This document shows, in pieces, positions 43,886-63,319 of a stretch of DNA of 64,000 bases. The first letter of the stretch is position 1. Each line of letters starts with the position of its first letter. Under the pieces are notes generated by a model. That model was not told the DNA's origin. It did no database searches and saw only the letters and a program-made list of their open reading frames with translations. This stretch comes from Candidatus Binataceae bacterium (GTDB taxonomy: Bacteria > Desulfobacterota > Binatia > Binatales > Binataceae): NCBI GenBank assembly GCA_035650475.1, contig DASRHP010000012.1:546059-610058 (forward strand). Reading direction: 5' to 3'. The position numbers and the translations under genes were made by a program.

Positions 43886-47566
<3,681 letters not shown>

Positions 47567-51730: not shown

Positions 51731-53056
51731 TCAGTAGTAGTCCACCGGGTCGATCTGGCGCTTGGCGCCGTACCAGAACAGCATGTTCTCGGTCAGCCCC
51801 TGCCAGGTGAACTTGCCCGGCGGCATCAGCAGCCGCTTGAACATCGACTTGAACGAGTAGAACTCCTTGGTGCAGCGCCAGACCCCTTCCTCGACCTGCT
51901 GCGGCGAGAGCTTGTTGGGCACGAACATGCAACGGAAGTTGTTGGTGTACATGTCGGCGTCGGGGATGATGACGCGGCCTTCCTGTTCCAGCTTCTCGCG
52001 CATCGGGGTGCCCTTGCGCGGAGTGACGGTGTTGAAGAAGGCCTCTGGCGCCTTGACCTCGTGGAGGAAACGCAGGGTGTCGTCGAAGATGCCCGGATGG
52101 TCCTCCTCGAGGCCGAAGAGGAAGTTGAGCGAGTAGTAAATGCCGTAGTGCTCGAGCCGCTTGAGCAGCTTCTTATACTCCTTGACGTGGTTCTGAATCT
52201 TGCTCATCGAGAGCAGGCTGTCCTGGCTTATCGATTCGACTCCGATGTTGACGTGGAACACGCCCGCCTTGGCCGCCAGCTCGAGCAGCTCCTCGTCGTG
52301 GTTGGAGTTGATCGTCCACAGACAGGAGAAGCGGATGTTGAGCGGGATGAGCGCGCGGAAGAGCTCGCGCGCGAACTTATGCTTGCCGGTGATCTGGTCG
52401 TCGATGAACTGGAAGCGGCGAAAGCCGGTGACATTGATGACCTGTTTGATCTCCTCGACGATGTCGCCGACCGGGCGGGTGCGGTAGCTGCCGCTGTAGA
52501 AGACCGGAATCTCGCAAAACGAGCAGCGATAAGGGCATCCGCGGCTCGCCTGCACCGGCACCGCCTTGAACAGGTAGCGGTTGAGCTTGAGCAGCTCGTG
52601 GCGCGGGCGCGGCAACCCCTTGAGGTCGTGCAGCTTATCGGCCTTGTAAACCTGCTTGAGCTTGCCGTCCTGCCAGTCGCGCAACAGCGGCTCCCACACC
52701 AGGTCGGCTTCGCCTTGGACTACGGCGTCGGCGTGTTTGAGCGCCTCCTCGGTCTGGAGGGTGGCATGGAAGCCGCCCATCACGACCGGGACGCCGCGTT
52801 TGCGAAACTCGTCGCCGAGCTGGTAGGCGCGCAGCGAGGCGCCGATGGTGGTGGTCATCCCTACCAGGTCCCATCCGGCGTCGAAGTCGAGGTCCTCCAG
52901 CCGCTCGTCGCACAGGGTTACATCGAAATCGGGCGGCGTCAGCCCCGCCATCAGCGGAATCATCAGCCCCATGATCAACCGCCAGCGCGTCTTGTGCGGA
53001 GTGCCGTCGAGATGGATCGTGGTCGGCTGGATCAGCAGAATACGCGGTTTTTTCAC
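51731..53056 (-). CDS. B12-binding domain radical SAM protein
   Basis: A 441-residue protein. The N-terminal ~140 residues are a cobalamin-binding-like domain (ILLIQPTTIHLDGTP, CDERLEDLDFD, VVMGGFHATL) without the DxHxxG motif, as usual for this class. The radical SAM core has SRGCPYRCSFCEIP with Cx3Cx2C, and a C-terminal ~130-residue domain follows (TPRKGTPMREKLEQEGR...FVPNKLSPQQVEEG). Members include methylases and BchE-like enzymes; this one is not assignable. It starts 20 bp after the CDP-alcohol phosphatidyltransferase gene and is likely cotranscribed, so it may modify the same lipid or headgroup. Confidence 0.88.
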   Translation of the reverse strand: MKKPRILLIQPTTIHLDGTPHKTRWRLIMGLMIPLMAGLTPPDFDVTLCDERLEDLDFDAGWDLVGMTTTIGASLRAYQLGDEFRKRGVPVVMGGFHATLQTEEALKHADAVVQGEADLVWEPLLRDWQDGKLKQVYKADKLHDLKGLPRPRHELLKLNRYLFKAVPVQASRGCPYRCSFCEIPVFYSGSYRTRPVGDIVEEIKQVINVTGFRRFQFIDDQITGKHKFARELFRALIPLNIRFSCLWTINSNHDEELLELAAKAGVFHVNIGVESISQDSLLSMSKIQNHVKEYKKLLKRLEHYGIYYSLNFLFGLEEDHPGIFDDTLRFLHEVKAPEAFFNTVTPRKGTPMREKLEQEGRVIIPDADMYTNNFRCMFVPNKLSPQQVEEGVWRCTKEFYSFKSMFKRLLMPPGKFTWQGLTENMLFWYGAKRQIDPVDYY

Positions 53057-53076
53057 GCTTCCTCCGTAGCCGCCGT

Positions 53077-54240
53077 TCAGGCCGGCTTCCCCTCAAACCC
53101 GCTTCGTCCCCATCGGCGGGTCGTCAACCGCCACAGGACGAACGTAAAGACGTAAGTGCCGAACGCGGCGCCCCAGACGAAGAGATACAGACGGTCGAAC
53201 AGAGCCAGTACGACCAGCAAATAGGCGAAGTCGCGCCCGGTAATTTGCTCGACCCGCGCGATCCAGTGCTCAGCCTCGGCGCCGCTGACCTGTGTGGCGC
53301 GCCATACCGCGACCGCTGTCAGCGCAAACCCCAGCAACAGGATGACCAGGAGATACAGGTAAGCCCGGCTGCCGCTGGCTCGATAGCATCCCGCGACCAG
53401 TCCACTGAACACTGCGACGTGCACGATGTTGTCGGTCACGATGTCGAGCCACGCGCCAAAGCGCGTCTCTGCCATCTTAAGCCGTGCCAGCTCGCCATCC
53501 ACCCCGTCGAAGGTCGTCGAAATCAGGAACAGTACTGCGGCGGCTACGTGGGTCCCGTAGCTGGTTACAGCGAACAGCCACGCGCTGAGCAGACCGAGCA
53601 TGCTATTGGCGAGCGTCACCTGGTTGGGTGTGATTGCGGTGTGCGCCAGCCGATAGCTGATCCGCCAGGAGAGCCGGCGGTCCAGCCAGCGCGCCATCGG
53701 TGCGTCCTTGGCCGCGGTTTCATGGCGCAGAGCGCGCGCCAGCCGCAGTTCGGCCTCGTGCAGGTCCTCCGGCCGTCCGTCCAGCGCGAAAGGCAGTTGA
53801 TTGCTGGTGGGTATCTGCGAGGCCGGGGCGGTGCCGACGCTGATAAGCTGCGCCAACGGGCCGGCAGCGACGCTTCCGCGCTGACCCACGTCGGCGCTGG
53901 CCAGCGCGACAACCCGACCGGGGCGGGCGGCCTGATGGTCGAAGACCGCCCGCAACTGCGAGGCCGGCATTACCAGGTTCCCCCGCATTGCCACACAGGG
54001 CGCGTCGGCCGGCAGCTCCTCGAGCACTTGGGCGAAGGAGCCGACGAAGCGTACTGCGGGGCTGTCGCGAAATGAGCCTAACGAGTCGCGGAGCGAGGGA
54101 CGCTCGGCTTCGGGGGCGCCGATGAAGAATCGCTTCACACCGGCGCGTTGACACATAAGTAGCAGCCGTTCGAGCAGGGGTCGCCCGAAGATCAGATTCC
54201 CGCTCCGGCTGGGGACGTCGATTAGTGCGGTCTCAATCAA
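53077..54240 (-). CDS. CDP-alcohol phosphatidyltransferase with degenerate nucleotidyltransferase-like N-domain
   Basis: A 387-residue fusion. The N-terminal ~190 residues resemble a sugar-phosphate nucleotidyltransferase ([25 protein letters not shown]) but lack the GxGxR loop and the substrate Lys. The C-terminal domain has six or so helices and the complete CDP-OH motif, DxxDGx2ARx8Gx3Dx3D, so the transferase half should work. The layout resembles archaeal bifunctional inositol-phosphate cytidylyltransferase/DIPP synthase. TTG at 54240 is the start, with AAAGG placed 6 bases upstream inside a hairpin. It is divergent from the HAD/nucleotidyltransferase operon, which encodes an intact nucleotidyltransferase that could supply the missing activity. 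Confidence 0.85.
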
Positions 54241-54242
54241 AG

Positions 54243-54267
54243 AAAACCTTTATTGAACAAAGGTTTT
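54243..54267 (-). promoter_or_regulatory. AT-rich palindrome sequestering the ribosome binding site
   Basis: AAAACCTTT (54243-54251) and AAAGGTTTT (54259-54267) are perfect 9-bp complements with a 7-base spacer. On the minus strand the downstream arm holds AAAGG, the only ribosome binding site for the TTG start at 54240. In RNA the stem would pair the site with CCTTT; as DNA it could be an operator serving both divergent units. It is sharply AT-rich against its surroundings. Confidence 0.55.
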
Positions 54268-54420
54268 TAGAACAATCGCGGCCTCGAGTCAACGCGCTGA
54301 CCGTGCGGTTTGTCACATCCGACATTCCTGCGCCGGTAACCTGTGCGCAACCGAAGCGTCTGCTTATTCTTCAAGCGAAAATTTGTAGAGGCGCGATGGA
54401 TGGGCTGCTAAGCTTGCTGG

Positions 54421-55194
54421 GTGACCAGTCCGACCCGGGGTTTGCTGTTCGACTTCGGCGGCACGCTCGACCATCCGCATCACTGGCTGGACCGATTCCT
54501 GCGCCACTATCGTCAGGCGGGGATCGAGCTGAGTCGGGCCGACCTCGACGCGGCCTATGCGCACGCCACTCGCACGGCCTACGCCGCCGACGCCCCTCTG
54601 CACCGGCGTGGCCTGCACGAGCTACTGCGTTTTCTGGTCGCCCATCAGTTTGACCATCTCCGCAGCCAAGGTCCGGCCGAGGTGCGCGAGCGCTTGCTCA
54701 GCCTCAACCAGCGGAGCGATCGCGTCGCCGAGCGCATTGCGGCCGACTTCGCCGAAGAGTCGGCGCACGGGCTGGCGCGCAGCCGCGACCTGATGCGTGA
54801 GCTATCGCGCGAATTCAAGCTGGGGGTTGTATCGAACTTCTACGGCAACCTCGAGGTGATCCTGGTCGAAGCCGGCATCCGCGAGCTTATCCAGGTGGCG
54901 ATCGATTCCAAGCATCTGGGGATTTTCAAACCCGACGAGCGGATTTTTGTCGCCGCGCTCAAGGCACTTGATCTGCCGCACAACCGCGTCGCGGTGGTAG
55001 GAGATTCGCTGCACAAGGATTGTGCGCCGGCCCGCAAGCTGGGCATGCACGCGATCTGGCTGCGAGCCGGCCGCACTGCGCATGCGGGCGCCACCCACGA
55101 GCGCGAGGCCGCGGCGATCGCGCATCAGACGATCGATTCGCTCGAAGACTTGAAGGATCTCAAATGGGAGACGGCGGAGTCAGCGGCGCAATAA
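54421..55194 (+). CDS. HAD-superfamily hydrolase
   Basis: A 257-residue HAD phosphatase-like protein. Motif I is LLFDFGGTLD, where Gly takes the place of the second Asp of DxDxT. Motif II is in LGVVSNFYGN, motif III is the Lys in HLGIFKPDERIF, and motif IV is VVGDSLHKDC. A helical cap lies at residues ~15-110. The likely substrate is a small phosphorylated molecule from the neighbouring pathway. It starts with GTG at 54421. Its C-terminus overlaps the nucleotidyltransferase start by 31 bp, indicating translational coupling. It is the first gene of a five-gene plus-strand run. Confidence 0.85.
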   Translation: MTSPTRGLLFDFGGTLDHPHHWLDRFLRHYRQAGIELSRADLDAAYAHATRTAYAADAPLHRRGLHELLRFLVAHQFDHLRSQGPAEVRERLLSLNQRSDRVAERIAADFAEESAHGLARSRDLMRELSREFKLGVVSNFYGNLEVILVEAGIRELIQVAIDSKHLGIFKPDERIFVAALKALDLPHNRVAVVGDSLHKDCAPARKLGMHAIWLRAGRTAHAGATHEREAAAIAHQTIDSLEDLKDLKWETAESAAQ

Positions 55195-55904
55195 TTGCCG
55201 CCGGCCGCGGCGAACGCCTGCGCGCGGCGGTGGGAGACATTCCCAAGCCGCTGGTCGAGCTGGGTGGCGAGGCGATGCTCGTGCGGCAGGCACGGATGTT
55301 GCGCCATGCGGGCGCAGCGAGCGTAGTGGCGCTGGTCAATTCCGAGACCGCGCGCCTGCTCGAGGCGCGTCGGCTCCAATTGCCGGATTGGCTGCGGCTG
55401 CGCGTGCGCGACACGGCGAGTTCGATGGAATCGTTGTTTGCGCTCAGCGACGACCTGCAAGCCGCCTCGCACTTCGTGCTCGCCACGGTTGACTCGGTTG
55501 CGGCGCCGGGCGAACTTAGATCTTTCACAAACCGGGCCGCCGAGCTCAGTGCCCCGCGCGGGGGACGGTTCGACGGAGCGCTGGCGGTCGTGCGATGGCG
55601 CGGCGACCGGCGTCCGCTATTTGCTGCGGTCGGCTCGGACGGCGCGATCACTGCGCTCGGCGAGTTCCAGAGCGCGATGGTTACGGCGGGGTTTTACTGG
55701 CTGCCGGGTACGATTTTCGACCTCGCGCCGCGAGCGCGCGCGGCGGGCCTGGATGCGATGCGGCGGCTTTTGGGAATGGCGGTGGAGAGCGGGATGCGAT
55801 TGGCGGCGATCGAGCTTTCAGGCGCGATCGACGTTGATGAATCGGCCGACCTCGCGGCGGCCCGCGCGCTGGTTGGTGCGGCGCCGGGTGCGGAGCGTGA
55901 ATGA
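55164..55904 (+). CDS. NTP transferase (sugar/polyol-phosphate nucleotidyltransferase)
   Basis: A 246-residue Rossmann-like nucleotidyltransferase. IIAAGRGERLRAAVG-IPKPLVELGGEAML carries GxGxR and the Lys of PKPL, both needed to activate a phosphorylated substrate with CTP or another NTP. FVLATVDSV holds the metal Asp position. GAIDVDESADLAAARAL is a usual C-terminal stretch. It is the likely supplier of an activated alcohol for the divergent CDP-alcohol phosphatidyltransferase; this link is inference. GAAGGA sits 7 bases before the ATG. Its stop overlaps the ATP-grasp start (ATGA). Confidence 0.86.
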   Translation: MGDGGVSGAIIAAGRGERLRAAVGDIPKPLVELGGEAMLVRQARMLRHAGAASVVALVNSETARLLEARRLQLPDWLRLRVRDTASSMESLFALSDDLQAASHFVLATVDSVAAPGELRSFTNRAAELSAPRGGRFDGALAVVRWRGDRRPLFAAVGSDGAITALGEFQSAMVTAGFYWLPGTIFDLAPRARAAGLDAMRRLLGMAVESGMRLAAIELSGAIDVDESADLAAARALVGAAPGAERE

Positions 55905-56743
55905 CGATGCGTGCGCTGGGAATCTATCGTGAGGCGGAATTTTCCCCGGGCAAGGTCGAGGCCGACGCGGCGATCCTCGACAGCGCGCTCGGCGCGCTGC
56001 GCGAGAACGGCTTCGAGGTCGGCGCGATCAGCGCCGCGCAGTTTGTGGAACGGACCCCGCCAGCCGCCGACGTCGTGCTTGCGATGTGCCAGGGTGAACG
56101 TGCGCTGGCCCGCCTGGCCGCCCTTGAACGCCAGGGCGCGCTTGCGATCAATTCCGCGCTCGCCATCCGCAACTGCTACCGCGACCTGCTCTATGCCGGA
56201 TTGAGCCATGCCGGCGTGCCGGCGCCCTCGGGTGCTCTGGTGCGCACCGACGCGCGCCCGCCCGACCTGATGCCGCTCGGCGTGCTTGATGTTGATGCTC
56301 CGATGTACGTCAAGCGCGGCGACCTCCATGCGCTTGCCTCCGACGACGTGCAACGGGTAGAAAGCCGGAGCGCGCTGCGCACGGCGCTGGCCGGGTTTGC
56401 GCGCCGCGGCGTGGGGCTGGCCTACGTGCAGCAGGCGGTCGAGGGCAGGGTGGTCAAGTTTTACGGCGTAAGCGGCGGCGAGTATTTCGCGGCCCTACCC
56501 GAAACCGGCGAGCTGTCGGATCGGACAAGCCTCGCGCTGGCGCAGAGCGCGGCCGCGGGCGCCGCCGCGCTCGGCCTGGAGGCGTGGGGTGGCGACGCGA
56601 TAATCGACGGCGAGCGCATCATGATTGTGGATTTCAACGACTGGCCCAGCTTCAGCAGGGTGCGCCAGGCCGCCGCGCGCGCGATCGCGCGCCGATGTGT
56701 GGCGCTTTTGCGCCGGGCGCGTCAGCCGCGCCAGGACGTCTGA
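55901..56743 (+). CDS. ATP-grasp domain protein
   Basis: A 280-residue protein with a RimK/glutathione-synthase-like ATP-grasp fold. MYVKRGDLHA and YVQQAVEGRVVKFYGVSG are the nucleotide-binding strands and lid; GGDAIIDGERIMIVDFNDWPSFS holds the metal ligands (Asp, Asn). Such enzymes join a carboxylate, activated as acyl phosphate, to an amine or thiol, or phosphorylate a polyol. The substrate is unknown. ATGA overlap with the nucleotidyltransferase and a 58-bp gap to the aminotransferase place it inside the pathway. Confidence 0.78.
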   Translation: MTMRALGIYREAEFSPGKVEADAAILDSALGALRENGFEVGAISAAQFVERTPPAADVVLAMCQGERALARLAALERQGALAINSALAIRNCYRDLLYAGLSHAGVPAPSGALVRTDARPPDLMPLGVLDVDAPMYVKRGDLHALASDDVQRVESRSALRTALAGFARRGVGLAYVQQAVEGRVVKFYGVSGGEYFAALPETGELSDRTSLALAQSAAAGAAALGLEAWGGDAIIDGERIMIVDFNDWPSFSRVRQAAARAIARRCVALLRRARQPRQDV

Positions 56744-56801
56744 ACGGGCGGCGCGCAGATTGGCGCCGCATTGCCCGAGGGGAGCTCAAGCAGAACAGCG
56801 G

Positions 56802-58289
56802 ATGAGCACATCGCATACGCCGAGGCCCATTACCACCGCATCCCAGAGCCCGGCCGCATCTGATGCAGTCCCGGCCGCCAATGGCCGGCGGACCGACGGA
56901 CGTCAGGCTGCAGAAGCGTCCAACGGACGCACGCTGGCCGCGGCGCTGCCGAAGATCGTCACCGAAATTCCGGGCGCGCGCTCGCGGGCATTATTCGAGA
57001 CCGAGCAGCGCCATATCGCGCCCGGCCGCCAGCGTATCTCCCAGCTCGCGGGTGTCGCTTTCGACCACGGCGCAGGCGCCACGCTGACCGACGTCGATGG
57101 CAATGTTTACCTCGACTTCTTCGCAGGTGTGGCGGTCGCCAGCCTCGGCCATGCGCATCCCGCGCTCGCCGACGCGCTCGCGCGTCAAGCCTCGCGCCTG
57201 ATCGTCGGAACGTTCGCCACGCCCGAGCGCGCCGAGGCGTTCCGGGCGCTGGGCGAAGCCGCGCCCGGCAAACTCAAGCGCGCGCATCTCTATAGCGGCG
57301 GCGCGGAGGCGGTTGAAGCGGCGCTGCGTCTTGCGCGCTCGGCCACCAAGCGGCACGAGGTGCTCGGCTTCTGGGGTGGTTTTCACGGCAAGACCGCGGG
57401 CGTGATGGGGCTTATCGGCGACGAGTCCAAGCAGGGTTACGGTCCGCTCGCCGGGGGCCAATACCTGGTCCCGTACGCCGACTGCTATCGATGCCCGTTC
57501 AAGATGGAATACCCGGGCTGCGGGCTGTACTGCGTCGATTTCGCGCGCGAGCAGCTCAAGCGCAGTTCGGCGGGCGCGCTCGCCGCGGTGGTAGCCGAGC
57601 CGATGCAAGGAACGGCGGGCAACGTGATACCCCCCGACGACTACTTGCCCGCGCTCAAGGAGCTCGCGCGCGAGCATCGAGCGCTGCTGATCGCTGATGA
57701 AATGATCACCGGCTTCGGCCGCACCGGGAAGATGTGGGGCGTCGAGCACAGCGGGGTCCAGCCCGACGTCATGACGATCGGCAAGGGGATGGGCTCGGGC
57801 TTTCCGGTTGCGGGCGTGCTGCTGAGCGACGAACTCGGCAAAAGCGAGCCGTTCGGCAAACCGAGCGCGTCGTCGTCAAGCTACGGTGGCAATCCGCTGG
57901 CGGCGGTGGCGGTGGCCCAGACGCTGCGCACGATTCAAAACGAGCGGCTGGTCGAAAACTCCGCCACGGTCGGGGCCTTCCTGCTCGAACGTTTGATGCG
58001 GCTCAAGGAGAAGTACGAATTCGTCGGTGACGTGCGCGGCAAGGGCCTGATGATCGGCATCGATCTGGTCCGCGACCGCAAGACCAGAGAAATGCTCGGG
58101 CGCTCGGTCACCGAGATGATCTTCAAGGAAGCGCTCAGGCGCGGGCTTCTGGTGATGGGCTACTTCCCGCGCATGCGGATCAATCCGCCGCTGGTGATCA
58201 CGCGCGAGCAGGCCGAAGCCGGCGCCGAAATCCTTGACGAAGTCTTCGCCCACGTCCGCGACCATGTGGACTGGCGCTCTGCTCCGTAA
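56802..58289 (+). CDS. Class III aminotransferase
   Basis: A 495-residue fold-type I PLP aminotransferase. LTDVDGNVYLDFFAGVAVASLGHAHP, FWGGFHGKTAGVMGL, VVAEPMQGTAGN, LLIADEMITGFGRTGKMWG and TIGKGMGSGFPVAG, with the PLP Lys, are in the usual order. A Cys-rich loop, CYRCPFKMEYPGCGLYC, occurs in a subset of the class. The N-terminal ~50 residues are low-complexity. It would add an amino group to an aldehyde or ketone of the pathway intermediate, or act as a 4-aminobutyrate-like transaminase. The ATG at 56802 has a distant GAGGGGAG. Confidence 0.88.
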   Translation: MSTSHTPRPITTASQSPAASDAVPAANGRRTDGRQAAEASNGRTLAAALPKIVTEIPGARSRALFETEQRHIAPGRQRISQLAGVAFDHGAGATLTDVDGNVYLDFFAGVAVASLGHAHPALADALARQASRLIVGTFATPERAEAFRALGEAAPGKLKRAHLYSGGAEAVEAALRLARSATKRHEVLGFWGGFHGKTAGVMGLIGDESKQGYGPLAGGQYLVPYADCYRCPFKMEYPGCGLYCVDFAREQLKRSSAGALAAVVAEPMQGTAGNVIPPDDYLPALKELAREHRALLIADEMITGFGRTGKMWGVEHSGVQPDVMTIGKGMGSGFPVAGVLLSDELGKSEPFGKPSASSSSYGGNPLAAVAVAQTLRTIQNERLVENSATVGAFLLERLMRLKEKYEFVGDVRGKGLMIGIDLVRDRKTREMLGRSVTEMIFKEALRRGLLVMGYFPRMRINPPLVITREQAEAGAEILDEVFAHVRDHVDWRSAP

Positions 58290-58301
58290 CGGGTTTCCAC
58301 G

Positions 58302-58778
58302 ATGGCGCAGGATGCCGGAAACCGTGCGCTGTTTTGCGACCTCGCGGGGACGCTCGTCGCGATGGACGAGACGCGCCAGCTCCCGCTCGGCCGCGACGGC
58401 AGGATCGTAGTCGAGCTCCTGCCCGGGGTGGCCGAGAAGCTCGCGCCAATTCGCGATCATCTGATCTTCGTCGTCACCAATCAGGCCGGGATTGCGCGCG
58501 GCCGGCTCTCTGCGGAGCAGGTCGAGGCCGCGCTCGCCGAGCTTGACGACAAGCTGGGCGGGATACTGAGCGGCTGGCAGATCTGCCCGCACGACGATTC
58601 GGCTGGATGCGCCTGCCGCAAGCCCAAGGGCGGAATGCTGACCGAGCTGGGTGCGACCTTCGGCGTCGATATGGCGGCTTCGACGATGGTTGGCGACCAG
58701 GAGATCGATGCGCAGGCGGGGCGTGCAGCGGGCGTCGGCCACTTCGTATGGGCGCGCGAATTCTTCGGCTGGAAGTAG
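58302..58778 (+). CDS. HAD-IIIA phosphatase, GmhB/histidinol-phosphatase-like
   Basis: A 158-residue HAD-IIIA protein. Motif I is LFCDLAGTLVAM, with Ala where DxDxT normally has the second Asp; Ala at that place is also found in phosphonoacetaldehyde hydrolase. VVTNQAGIARG is motif II, and CPHDDSAGCACRKPKGGM has the CxH...CxC zinc loop and Lys of GmhB-type heptose bisphosphatases. MVGDQEIDAQAG is motif IV. The loss of the general acid may alter activity. It starts 12 bp after the aminotransferase and closes the run. Confidence 0.83.
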   Translation: MAQDAGNRALFCDLAGTLVAMDETRQLPLGRDGRIVVELLPGVAEKLAPIRDHLIFVVTNQAGIARGRLSAEQVEAALAELDDKLGGILSGWQICPHDDSAGCACRKPKGGMLTELGATFGVDMAASTMVGDQEIDAQAGRAAGVGHFVWAREFFGWK

Positions 58779-58924
58779 GCTCTCGTTTTTCCTCACCGTT
58801 TCGAAGGCCGGGATGGCGTGGGGGTGTTATCGCCTTTCGCGCGGCTGGAAATCATCGGCGCTTTTTGCGACAACTCGCCTTGGGCGAGTGAGCATCCGCA
58901 CAGCCCATCCCGGAGGTGGACCGC

Positions 58925-59782
58925 ATGAAGATCGGGTTACTGATGCCGTTTACCGAGGACACCGCCAACCCGGCGGACTTCTGCCGCGCCGCCGAGGATC
59001 TGGGTTACGAATCGATGTGGGTGCCGGAGCATCCGGTGCTCCCTTCCAACCCCAAGACGCCATTTCCGCAGGGCGGGCCGATTCCGCCGGTCTATTCGCA
59101 CATGGGCGATCAGTTCGTCGCGCTCGGGATGGCGGCGGCGGCGACCCGAAAGCTCAAGCTCGCAACCGGCATCTGCCTGGTGCCGGAGCACAACCCGCTG
59201 ATCCTGGCCAAGCAGATCGGCAGCCTCGATCATTTCTCCGGCGGGCGCTTCATCTTCGGCATCGGCGCCGGATGGCTGCGCGAGGAGGCCGAGCTGCTCG
59301 GCGCCGATTTTCCGCGCCGATGGACACAGAGCGCCGAGTACGTCGGCGCGATGCGCGCGCTGTGGAGTAAGGGCGAGGCGTCGTTCGAGGGCAAATACAT
59401 CAAGTTTCCGCCGGTGCGCTGCTATCCGCAGCCGGCGCAGCCCGGCGGTCCGCCGGTCCTGCTAGGCAGCCGCGACAAGAACGCGCTCAAGCGGGTCGCC
59501 CGATGGGGCGACGGATGGTGCCCGATCCGGGTCACGGTTGACGATCTGAAAAAGGCGCTCCCCGAGCTGCGCGAGGAATGCGAGAAAGTCGGGCGCGACT
59601 ACTCCAGGCTCGACATCACGGTGATGGGCGCACTGGGAAACGAACGCGCCAAGGTTCAGGACGAGCTGGGCAGGTACGCCGCGCTCGGCGTGGGCCGCTT
59701 TGTGATCGCGCTGGTTGCCGGCGCGCTCGGCCCCTCGCAGTACCAATCCGAGCTCGAACGGCTGGCGAAGATTTACGTCTGA
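58925..59782 (+). CDS. LLM-class (F420-type) oxidoreductase
   Basis: A 285-residue TIM-barrel flavin/F420 oxidoreductase of the luciferase-like class. MKIGLLMPFTEDT, LATGICLVPEHNPLILAKQIGSLDHFSGGRFIFGIGAGW and ADFPRRW are typical. The GxGxGW loop and the LGA segment bind the cofactor; F420 or FMN cannot be told apart from sequence alone. GGAGGTGG at 58911-58918 supports the ATG at 58925. A paralogue is at 61385-62236. The substrate is unknown. Confidence 0.87.
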   Translation: MKIGLLMPFTEDTANPADFCRAAEDLGYESMWVPEHPVLPSNPKTPFPQGGPIPPVYSHMGDQFVALGMAAAATRKLKLATGICLVPEHNPLILAKQIGSLDHFSGGRFIFGIGAGWLREEAELLGADFPRRWTQSAEYVGAMRALWSKGEASFEGKYIKFPPVRCYPQPAQPGGPPVLLGSRDKNALKRVARWGDGWCPIRVTVDDLKKALPELREECEKVGRDYSRLDITVMGALGNERAKVQDELGRYAALGVGRFVIALVAGALGPSQYQSELERLAKIYV

Positions 59783-61384: not shown

Positions 61385-62236
61385 ATGAAGATAGGAATCC
61401 TGGCCTGGTGCGCGGAGCATACCGCCGACTTCGCCACCGTCGCCGCGCGCTGCGAACAACTTGGCTTCGAATCGTTCTTTGTCGCCGAGCATCCGATCTT
61501 CCCGGCCGAGGTTCACACGCGTCTGCCGCGTGGCGACGGCAAGATTCCCGAGGTTTACGCGCACATGCCCGACCCGTTCATCGGGCTTGCGCTCGCGGCT
61601 GGCGCTACGCGCCGGATCAAACTCGGCACCGGCATCTGTCTGGTGCCGGAGCGCGACCCGAAAATCCTGGCCAAGGAGGTCGCCACGCTCGACCGCTATT
61701 GCGGCGGCCGCTTCATCTTCGGCATCGGCGCCGGGTGGCTGCGCGAAGAGAGCGAGATCATGGGCGTCGATTTCCGCCGGCGATGGGCCCATACGCGCGA
61801 ATGCATCCGCGCGATGAAGGAACTGTGGACAAAGCCCGAGGCCGGCTTCGACGGCGAGTTCGTCAGCTTCAAGCCTATTCGCGTTAATCCCAAGCCGCTC
61901 CAGAAGCCGCATCCGCCGATCCACGTCGGCGCGGGCGGCGAGCGCGCGCTTAAGAACACGGTCGCGATCGGCGACGGATGGTGTCCGATCGCGGTCAGCC
62001 CGGATCAACTCGCAAGCGCGCTGGTGCGGTTGCGCAGGCTGTGCGAGGAGGCCGGGCGCGACTTCGGCTCGCTCGAAATCACGATCTACAACCCGGTCGC
62101 GGGCGGCGATCCGCGCAAGGCGCTCAAGCGCTACGAGGAAGCCGGAGCTCATCGCCTGGTCCTGATGAACGCAACGCTGCATGCGGATCGCTACCAGCAT
62201 GAACTGGAAGGCTTCGCCCGCGACTGGATCGTCTGA
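61385..62236 (+). CDS. LLM-class (F420-type) oxidoreductase
   Basis: A 283-residue LLM oxidoreductase, a paralogue of the protein at 58925. It shares FVAEHPIFPAE, LGTGICLVPERDPKILAKEVATLDRYCGGRFIFGIGAGW, VDFRRRW, and IGDGWCPI. It probably uses F420 or FMN. The start at 61385 has an AGGGGG stretch 6 bases upstream, and the frame is open 24 codons further. The Gfo/Idh/MocA gene starts 63 bp after its stop and may be cotranscribed. No substrate is readable. Confidence 0.87.
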   Translation: MKIGILAWCAEHTADFATVAARCEQLGFESFFVAEHPIFPAEVHTRLPRGDGKIPEVYAHMPDPFIGLALAAGATRRIKLGTGICLVPERDPKILAKEVATLDRYCGGRFIFGIGAGWLREESEIMGVDFRRRWAHTRECIRAMKELWTKPEAGFDGEFVSFKPIRVNPKPLQKPHPPIHVGAGGERALKNTVAIGDGWCPIAVSPDQLASALVRLRRLCEEAGRDFGSLEITIYNPVAGGDPRKALKRYEEAGAHRLVLMNATLHADRYQHELEGFARDWIV

Positions 62237-62299
62237 GATGGCGGCGGCGATGACGGACGCGTTCCGCGCGCACCTGGCGCAATGGCGCCGGACGGGGCG

Positions 62300-63319
62300 A
62301 TGAGCCTGCGCGGCGCAATCTCTGGCTTCGGCGAGGTCGCCGCCCAAGCCCATCTGGCCGGATGGCGCACGCGGCTCGACGTCAACATCGTAGCGATCCA
62401 CGATCCGATTGCCGAGCGGCGCCATCACGCGATTCGCCTCATCCCCAACGTCCGCGCGTACGATGATCTGGAGCTGATGCTCGACGGCGAACGGCTCGAC
62501 TTCATCGACGTCGCAAGCCCGCCCGCTTTCCACGCGGCCACAGCGCGGATGGCGCTGGAAGCCGGGGTGCACGTGCTGGTCGAGAAGCCGCTTTGCCTGG
62601 ACGTCGTCGAGTTCGACGCACTGCGCGCCGCCGCCGTAAACCGCGGGCGGGTACTGATGTGCGTCCACAACTGGAAGCATGCAGCGGCATATCGTCTGGC
62701 GCAGCGGATGATCAGCGACGGGCGTCTGGGCGAGATTCGCTACGTCGCGCTCGACCGCCTGCGGACCGCTCCGGCGGGTGTGAGCGCGGGCACGGGCGGG
62801 CGATGGCGGACAGGGGCGGCATCAGGCGGCGGCATCCTCATCGACCACGGATGGCACGTTTTCTACCTGATGCGCTGGCTGATGGGCGGGGTCGACCCGG
62901 TATCCGTTTCGGCCTGGCTCGACGCGGCTCCCAATAGCGGCGTTGAAGGCGTCGCCGACCTGCGCGTGTCTTTCCCTGACGGGCGCCTGGGGTCGGCGCA
63001 TCTGAGCTGGCAGTCACCGGTCCGTCGCACGCGCGCGCTTGTCTACGGGAGCGAGCGCGCGCTCGAGATCGAGGACAATCGTATCGTGCTGACCGCGCGG
63101 TCCGGTGCGTCTGAGAATCTGTCGATCGCCGACGAAATCGACGATTCCTACCATTCGGCGTGGTTTGCAGGGGTGGCGTCAGATTTTGAACGCGCTATCG
63201 TCGGGGGTGCTGGCTCGGCGCTGCTGGCAGAAAATCTTGCCGAGGCACGAGCCGCGCTCGCCATGACGTTGGCCGCGCGCGAATCCCATCGCCGAGGCGT
63301 AATTGCCAAAGTCGTGTGA
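62300..63319 (+). CDS. Gfo/Idh/MocA-family oxidoreductase
   Basis: A 339-residue NAD(P)-dependent dehydrogenase of the glucose-fructose oxidoreductase/inositol dehydrogenase group. ISGFGEVAAQAHLAGW is the nucleotide loop, VASPPAFHAATARMALEAGVHVLVEKPLCLD holds the Glu-Lys-Pro motif with the active Lys, and GGGILIDHGWHVFYLMRWL carries the Asp-His pair. Substrates in the family are sugars, inositols and biliverdin. ATG at 62300 is used; an upstream in-frame ATG is at 62282. It could supply a keto-polyol to the aminotransferase in the candidate headgroup cluster ~4 kb upstream, but this is speculative. Confidence 0.88.
   Translation: MSLRGAISGFGEVAAQAHLAGWRTRLDVNIVAIHDPIAERRHHAIRLIPNVRAYDDLELMLDGERLDFIDVASPPAFHAATARMALEAGVHVLVEKPLCLDVVEFDALRAAAVNRGRVLMCVHNWKHAAAYRLAQRMISDGRLGEIRYVALDRLRTAPAGVSAGTGGRWRTGAASGGGILIDHGWHVFYLMRWLMGGVDPVSVSAWLDAAPNSGVEGVADLRVSFPDGRLGSAHLSWQSPVRRTRALVYGSERALEIEDNRIVLTARSGASENLSIADEIDDSYHSAWFAGVASDFERAIVGGAGSALLAENLAEARAALAMTLAARESHRRGVIAKVV

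Follow-up and report, generated by a model that had tools for sequence, protein, structure and literature searches.

The window analysed here, a 64,000-nucleotide stretch from the genome of a Candidatus Binataceae bacterium, a soil member of the uncultured Binatota (contig DASRHP010000012.1, positions 546,059 to 610,058), carries towards its right end two divergently oriented gene sets and a dehydrogenase gene a short distance beyond them, which together encode what may be a pathway for a phospholipid with an amino-deoxy-inositol (inosamine) head group. The genes, with the short names used below, are as follows (window coordinates, strand):

51731-53056, minus: radical SAM protein (Pfam radical SAM); outside the proposed pathway
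53077-54240, minus: CDPOH, two-domain CDP-alcohol phosphotransferase (Pfam CDP-OH_P_transf, motif, fold); predicted to transfer phospho-inosamine to lipid
54421-55194, plus: HAD1, HAD-superfamily protein (Pfam HAD)
55164-55904, plus: NTP, sugar-phosphate nucleotidyltransferase (Pfam MobA-like); putative CTP:inosamine (inositol)-phosphate cytidylyltransferase
55901-56743, plus: ATPg, ATP-grasp protein (structure model, profile); putative inositol/inosamine kinase
56802-58289, plus: AT3, class III pyridoxal phosphate (PLP) aminotransferase (Pfam Aminotran_3, 1.9e-97); putative inosose aminotransferase, start a best guess
58302-58778, plus: HAD3, GmhB/histidinol-phosphatase-like HAD protein, in the Binataceae form of the cluster
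62282-63319, plus: GFO, Gfo/Idh/MocA dehydrogenase (orthologue distribution); putative inositol dehydrogenase

The first seven of these genes had been listed in a preliminary description of the locus, and all are found in the sequence with the coordinates, strands and overlaps given there. The spacing comprises overlaps of 31 bases between HAD1 and NTP and 4 bases between NTP and ATPg, gaps of 58 bases from ATPg to AT3, 12 from AT3 to HAD3 and 20 from CDPOH to the radical SAM gene, and a divergent intergenic region of 180 bases; a promoter scan gave no signal exceeding shuffles. Pfam recovers the radical SAM, CDP-OH_P_transf, HAD, MobA-like and Aminotran_3 families and a structure model the ATP-grasp family, but the B12 label attached to the radical SAM protein is weak, its B12-binding match lying under the Pfam cut-off.

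We find that HAD1, NTP, ATPg, AT3 and CDPOH form one conserved unit in Binataceae, other Binatia, and desulfobacterial and Bdellovibrionota genomes. The genomes compared are drafts, so that absences are soft, and they are related by descent, so that Fisher values express association and not independent events; genes in related loci were called with a simple codon-usage caller. Synteny is well above chance: of 24 Binataceae loci, 22 have ATPg next after NTP, 21 have NTP next after HAD1, 20 have AT3 next after ATPg and 18 have HAD3 next after AT3, and ATPg lies directly 3' of NTP in 51/54 Bacteroidota loci. Records whose loci match bear the names Candidatus Binataceae and Candidatus Binatus soli, and the same loci are carried by genomes from the family to which the window belongs. 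Beyond this family the genes recur elsewhere in Binatia and in records with the titles Syntrophobacterales, Desulfarculales, Desulfobacterales, Bdellovibrionales, Myxococcales and, in one case, Hyphomicrobiales. The order is colinear, HAD-NTP-ATPg-AT3-GFO-CDPOH, in Binatia families f3, f7, f11, f13 and f14, often with a flippase-like LPG_synthase_TM protein next after CDPOH. Outside Bacteroidota, the cluster is present mostly in this aminated version, a single myxococcal contig stopping before that point.

An AT3 orthologue is found in 50/53 genomes of the class with ATPg and in 4/95 without; the three exceptions that have ATPg and no AT3 comprise one decayed cluster (G017, locus L055) and two loci truncated at contig ends (G004, G040). 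GFO, which the preliminary description had missed, also belongs to the cluster: its orthologue comes immediately after AT3 in Binatia families other than Binataceae and tracks ATPg (35/36 relatives with ATPg versus 1/21 without). In Binataceae the GFO gene lies a few genes downstream of the cluster or at another place in the genome. Neither of the two near-complete Binataceae genomes that lack ATPg has CDPOH. At the decaying locus, in a Binataceae genome (G017:C9:23000-42500), CDPOH and HAD1 are broken and NTP and AT3 were not found, and that genome gives no match to GFO or to inositol-3-phosphate synthase (MIPS), the joint loss that would be expected of a single pathway.

The substrate of the cluster is most likely inositol, since MIPS tracks the cluster, NTP and CDPOH resemble CDP-inositol enzymes and the ATPg profile matches inositol phosphate kinases. 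MIPS is encoded in 48/53 class genomes with ATPg compared to 26/95 without (Fisher 3.8e-14), and in 14/15 genomes of the distant and Bacteroidota loci compared to 6/14 control genomes. In three distant genomes (loci L086, L093 and L094) MIPS sits within the cluster alongside AT3 and GFO; in L086 and L094 it is of the Ino1 type and directly upstream of HAD1, with a TIGR03450 match for L086. The window's own genome has an Ino1-type MIPS at G000:C12:852107-853204, outside the window and not adjoining the cluster, and Binataceae genomes have either the Ino1 type or the other type. An apparent absence of MIPS from the window's own genome was a false negative of PF07994, which missed the Ino1 type and a Corynebacterium control as well; a protein query and PF01658 recovered the gene.

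The profiles of both NTP and CDPOH, and the fold of CDPOH, resemble those of cytidine diphosphate (CDP)-inositol enzymes. The AAGxGERL and PKPL motifs of NTP are invariant, and the top PDB matches of its profile include the CTP:inositol-1-phosphate cytidylyltransferase 2xme and the bifunctional IPCT-DIPPS enzyme 4mnd, along with other sugar-phosphate nucleotidyltransferases. CDPOH has a complete CDP-alcohol phosphotransferase (CDP-AP) motif, DX2DGX2AR...GX3DX3D, and both domains of its model (predicted local distance difference test score, pLDDT, 88) match AF2299 and IPCT-DIPPS with Z of 25-26 (against 4mnd, Z 25.2 and root-mean-square deviation 4.5 over 341 residues); phosphatidylinositol-phosphate (PIP) synthases also match the membrane domain. 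The N-terminal domain has the cytidylyltransferase fold, with the nucleotide-binding signature (AAGxGxRL, PKP) absent from the N-terminal domains aligned. HHalign of this domain against NTP is weak (28%), and it was the structure comparison that settled its identity. CDPOH as modelled is a degenerate cytidylyltransferase domain joined to a membrane CDP-AP domain.

ATPg has no Pfam match. Its model (mean pLDDT 96.4) adopts the ATP-grasp fold, with RimK and LysX at Z 21-23, and a profile built from 42 sequences gives inositol polyphosphate kinases as five of its eight PDB matches, the best being AtITPK4 at 3e-6. The metal motif aligned to ATPg is DxN, as in inositol polyphosphate kinases, compared to ELN in the two ligases shown. 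Fold was tried as a discriminator between kinase and ligase and set aside, with Foldseek and VIA-align ranking RimK, LysX, Ddl and CPS over the inositol 1,3,4-trisphosphate 5/6-kinases (ITPKs); given this ranking, it is the DxN motif and the profile match that speak for a kinase, and on that footing we propose ATPg as a predicted inositol/inosamine kinase.

AT3 matches the class III family profile and its PLP lysine is invariant. GFO keeps the EKP motif and DHGxH: none of E, K, P and the catalytic residues D188 and H192 varies among 17 sequences. HAD phosphatases have DxD in motif I, the second Asp being the acid/base. The nucleophile Asp and motifs II-IV of HAD1 are invariant, with the second motif-I Asp replaced by Gly in 85/85 homologues; its loss extends to the homologues in loci L039-L148. 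In HAD3 the same residue is Ala, Gly, Val or Ser in 20/20. HAD1 and HAD3 may be phosphotransferases or users of another acid/base.

Gene content, linkage, co-occurrence with MIPS, and enzyme family and fold are read directly from sequence, and the order of events that would join them can be outlined as follows. MIPS, encoded elsewhere in the genome, would provide inositol phosphate, from which HAD1, HAD3 or some general phosphatase would remove the phosphate; GFO would then oxidize one inositol hydroxyl to a ketone, which AT3 would transaminate to inosamine, ATPg would phosphorylate the inosamine, NTP would convert the product with CTP to its CDP derivative, and CDPOH would pass phospho-inosamine to an acceptor lipid in the membrane. 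The steps may also run in a different order, e.g., activation first and then amination; substrates, step order and acceptor (diacylglycerol, ceramide or other) are what we infer. AT3 and GFO, as additions to a plain inositol-lipid core, suggest an amino-inositol head group on the logic of aminocyclitol antibiotics, a suggestion supported by the occurrence of the same core without AT3 and GFO beside MIPS in Bacteroidota. We assign a probability of roughly 0.5 to the proposal that the cluster makes an inosamine phospholipid through a CDP-activated intermediate. The wider proposal, that Binatota and a number of other lineages make inosamine lipids as a class of bacterial membrane lipids of their own, a zwitterionic counterpart of phosphatidylinositol, through a dedicated CDP-inosamine pathway centred on a bacterial ATP-grasp inositol kinase, is put forward slightly more tentatively. 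We found no report of an inosamine or aminocyclitol phospholipid in the open-licence PMC literature.

Several observations weigh against the inosamine phospholipid. The Bacteroidota cluster with which we compare it is itself a predicted pathway, and by fold alone ATPg is nearer to the RimK and LysX ligases than to any kinase listed. The nearest solved relatives of AT3 are an archaeal aminotransferase and amino-acid racemases, with amino-acid substrates, and known inosamine aminotransferases are of the DegT family. The nearest solved relatives of GFO are a mixture of sugar and inositol dehydrogenases, the second motif-I Asp typical of HAD phosphatases is missing from HAD1 and HAD3, and five ATPg-bearing genomes of the class have no MIPS match, although all are drafts and one has the decayed cluster.

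Among the alternatives considered, the likeliest is plain phosphatidylinositol, made by the core (MIPS, NTP, ATPg, CDPOH and HAD) via CDP-inositol, with AT3 and GFO put to some other use, such as modification after attachment or an unrelated amino sugar. The core alone adjoins MIPS in Bacteroidota, and B. vulgatus makes phosphoinositol dihydroceramide (PMC9246714), but the mid-operon position of AT3 and the fidelity with which both AT3 and GFO track ATPg speak against it, and we regard this outcome as unlikely. The product could also be soluble, if CDPOH coupled CDP-inosamine or CDP-inositol to a soluble inositol phosphate to give a di-inositol-phosphate-like solute, as in hyperthermophiles; the two-domain CDPOH is indeed closest to AF2299 and IPCT-DIPPS, but PIP synthases match its membrane domain as well, outside Binataceae the cluster comes with a flippase-like membrane protein, and its Bacteroidota homologue has been linked to lipids, which together make a solute quite improbable.

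We hold it similarly improbable that ATPg is an amino-acid ligase acting on inosamine or inositol, with AT3 providing or racemising the amino acid. This arrangement would be consistent with RimK and LysX as the top ATPg folds and with the likeness of AT3 to amino-acid racemases, but sits poorly with the DxN motif, with an ITPK as the best profile match, and with the retention of ATPg in Bacteroidota clusters that have no AT3. Least probable of all is a polyol or sugar other than inositol, with NTP, GFO and AT3 acting on its phosphate and MIPS co-occurring for a separate reason: NTP is also like sugar-1-phosphate nucleotidyltransferases and GFO like other sugar dehydrogenases, but three distant genomes have MIPS within the cluster, and its co-occurrence with the cluster is strong. 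The reading with the best support remains a lipid head-group pathway with CDP activation and amination, in line with the lipid head-group or polyol pathway suggested in the preliminary description. The gene set and the polyol of that suggestion needed correction, the latter from an unspecified one to inositol; its ligation step is now read as a kinase step from the ITPK profile match and DxN, and neither HAD protein has the second motif-I Asp that a phosphatase would be expected to have.

We judge the radical SAM gene to be a neighbour that has a function of its own, and exclude it from the pathway because of its distribution. It is present in 35/35 Binataceae searched, at 85-95% identity compared to ≈50% for the adjoining CDPOH, and it is kept in three Binataceae genomes without detected ATPg (G010, G028 and G007, the last only 53% complete); in four genomes it and ATPg are on different contigs. 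Its candidacy as a pathway member, assumed previously, is rejected on this persistence, and of the families expected to recur together in other genomes, HAD1, NTP, ATPg, AT3 and CDPOH do so. The nearest solved relative of the protein is AprD4 (6fd2, 1.9e-9), and no DxHxxG motif was seen by eye in its N-terminal domain.

Other genes accompany the cluster in the window and in its relatives. Two luciferase-like (LLM class) oxidoreductases, at 58916-59782 and 61385-62236, lie between HAD3 and GFO, with related genes at the same place in many Binataceae, and a hybrid histidine kinase of 1204 residues, with several PAS domains and a receiver domain, is encoded at 43886-47500. Directly after GFO and past the right end of the window is a hopanoid-type set (L183, G000:C12:608000-627500) of HpnH-like radical SAM, polyprenyl synthase, dehydrogenase and squalene-hopene cyclase (SHC) genes, syntenic in several Binataceae; a hopanoid link was considered and dropped, this adjacency being treated as local because the cluster recurs in distant genomes without HpnH or SHC alongside. 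PdxA-like and RlmN-like genes beside many Bacteroidota loci were set aside as housekeeping neighbours, judged from N-terminal sequences. The richest version of the cluster, in Desulfarculales UBA696 (L087, 3188-16195), has HAD-NTP-ATPg-AT3-GFO together with a sulfotransferase, a flippase-like protein and an MMPL transporter; its CDPOH and radical SAM protein are 56% and 42% identical to those of the window, possibly through horizontal exchange. Family f7 (L056, L058, L062, L181 and L182) has a second, divergent two-domain CDP-alcohol phosphotransferase gene, oriented divergently from HAD1, and in one genome of Binatia family f3 an LpxA-like acyltransferase that possibly acylates the amine follows the cluster (L057:14059-14856).

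Bacterial inositol lipids are considered rare. The core of the cluster predicted in Bacteroidetes is now seen also in Binatota, desulfobacterial lineages, Bdellovibrionota and one myxococcal contig. If true, our proposal predicts a class of membrane lipids whose inositol head group is basic, which mass spectrometry could recognise by a head-group fragment that weighs 0.984 Da less than the one from phosphatidylinositol. For the pathway of gut Bacteroidetes, the conserved ATP-grasp gene, with its likeness to inositol phosphate kinases, gains a candidate role, and the HAD enzyme there is probably not a standard phosphatase.

The closest known system is the 'alternate' inositol-lipid cluster of Bacteroidetes, in which NTP, CDPOH and HAD beside MIPS are predicted to act via CDP-inositol (Heaver et al. 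2022, PMC9246714). In B. vulgatus it comprises BVU_RS13095-13115, with functions that the authors call unconfirmed, and this species makes phosphoinositol dihydroceramide despite lacking the B. thetaiotaomicron genes (PMC9246714); the text of that paper makes no mention of an ATP-grasp protein, and we found no later work on the alternate route in the open-licence PMC literature. Common to both clusters are linked, homologous NTP, CDP-alcohol phosphotransferase family and HAD genes, with ATPg after NTP. MIPS is nearby in Bacteroidota and elsewhere in the genome for the window, CDPOH is single-domain there and two-domain here, and AT3 and GFO, present in Binatota, are absent from all 54 Bacteroidota loci. 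By sequence comparison the Binatota cluster is a variant of the alternate cluster and not a strict member, because two enzymes, AT3 and GFO, are added; the earlier impression that no described pathway has this gene set holds for those two enzymes and not for the predicted core.

Parts of the proposed route are recognizable in other systems. Archaeoglobus IPCT-DIPPS (4mnd), which makes CDP-inositol and di-inositol phosphate phosphate, has the two-domain architecture of CDPOH, and its IPCT domain is resembled by the separate NTP protein; unlike it, CDPOH has lost the nucleotidyltransferase signature from its N-terminal domain, the cytidylyltransferase being a separate protein here. The steps proposed for the aminocyclitol of hygromycin A, namely MIPS, phosphatase, PF01408 inositol dehydrogenase and aminotransferase (Hyg18, Hyg25, Hyg17 and Hyg8; PMC10949010), follow a similar inosamine logic, and MIPS and the PF01408 dehydrogenase and aminotransferase families co-occur here, with an aminotransferase of class III; the product there is part of an antibiotic and not a lipid, and the described steps include nothing that corresponds to NTP or CDPOH. 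ITPKs such as AtITPK4 (7pup) have the ATP-grasp fold and DxN metal motif in common with ATPg, which is only distantly related (3e-6) and a kinase by prediction from sequence. AtITPK4 itself carries, fused to its ATP-grasp kinase, a HAD-like domain without the second motif-I Asp (PMC7614388), a likeness to HAD1 and HAD3 that we note without implying homology. In the mycobacterial and B. thetaiotaomicron PI-phosphate route (PIPS and a phosphatase), the MIPS product likewise enters a CDP-alcohol phosphotransferase, with the lipid as the CDP-activated partner, whereas in the Binatota cluster the presence of a cytidylyltransferase suggests that it is the head group that is activated.

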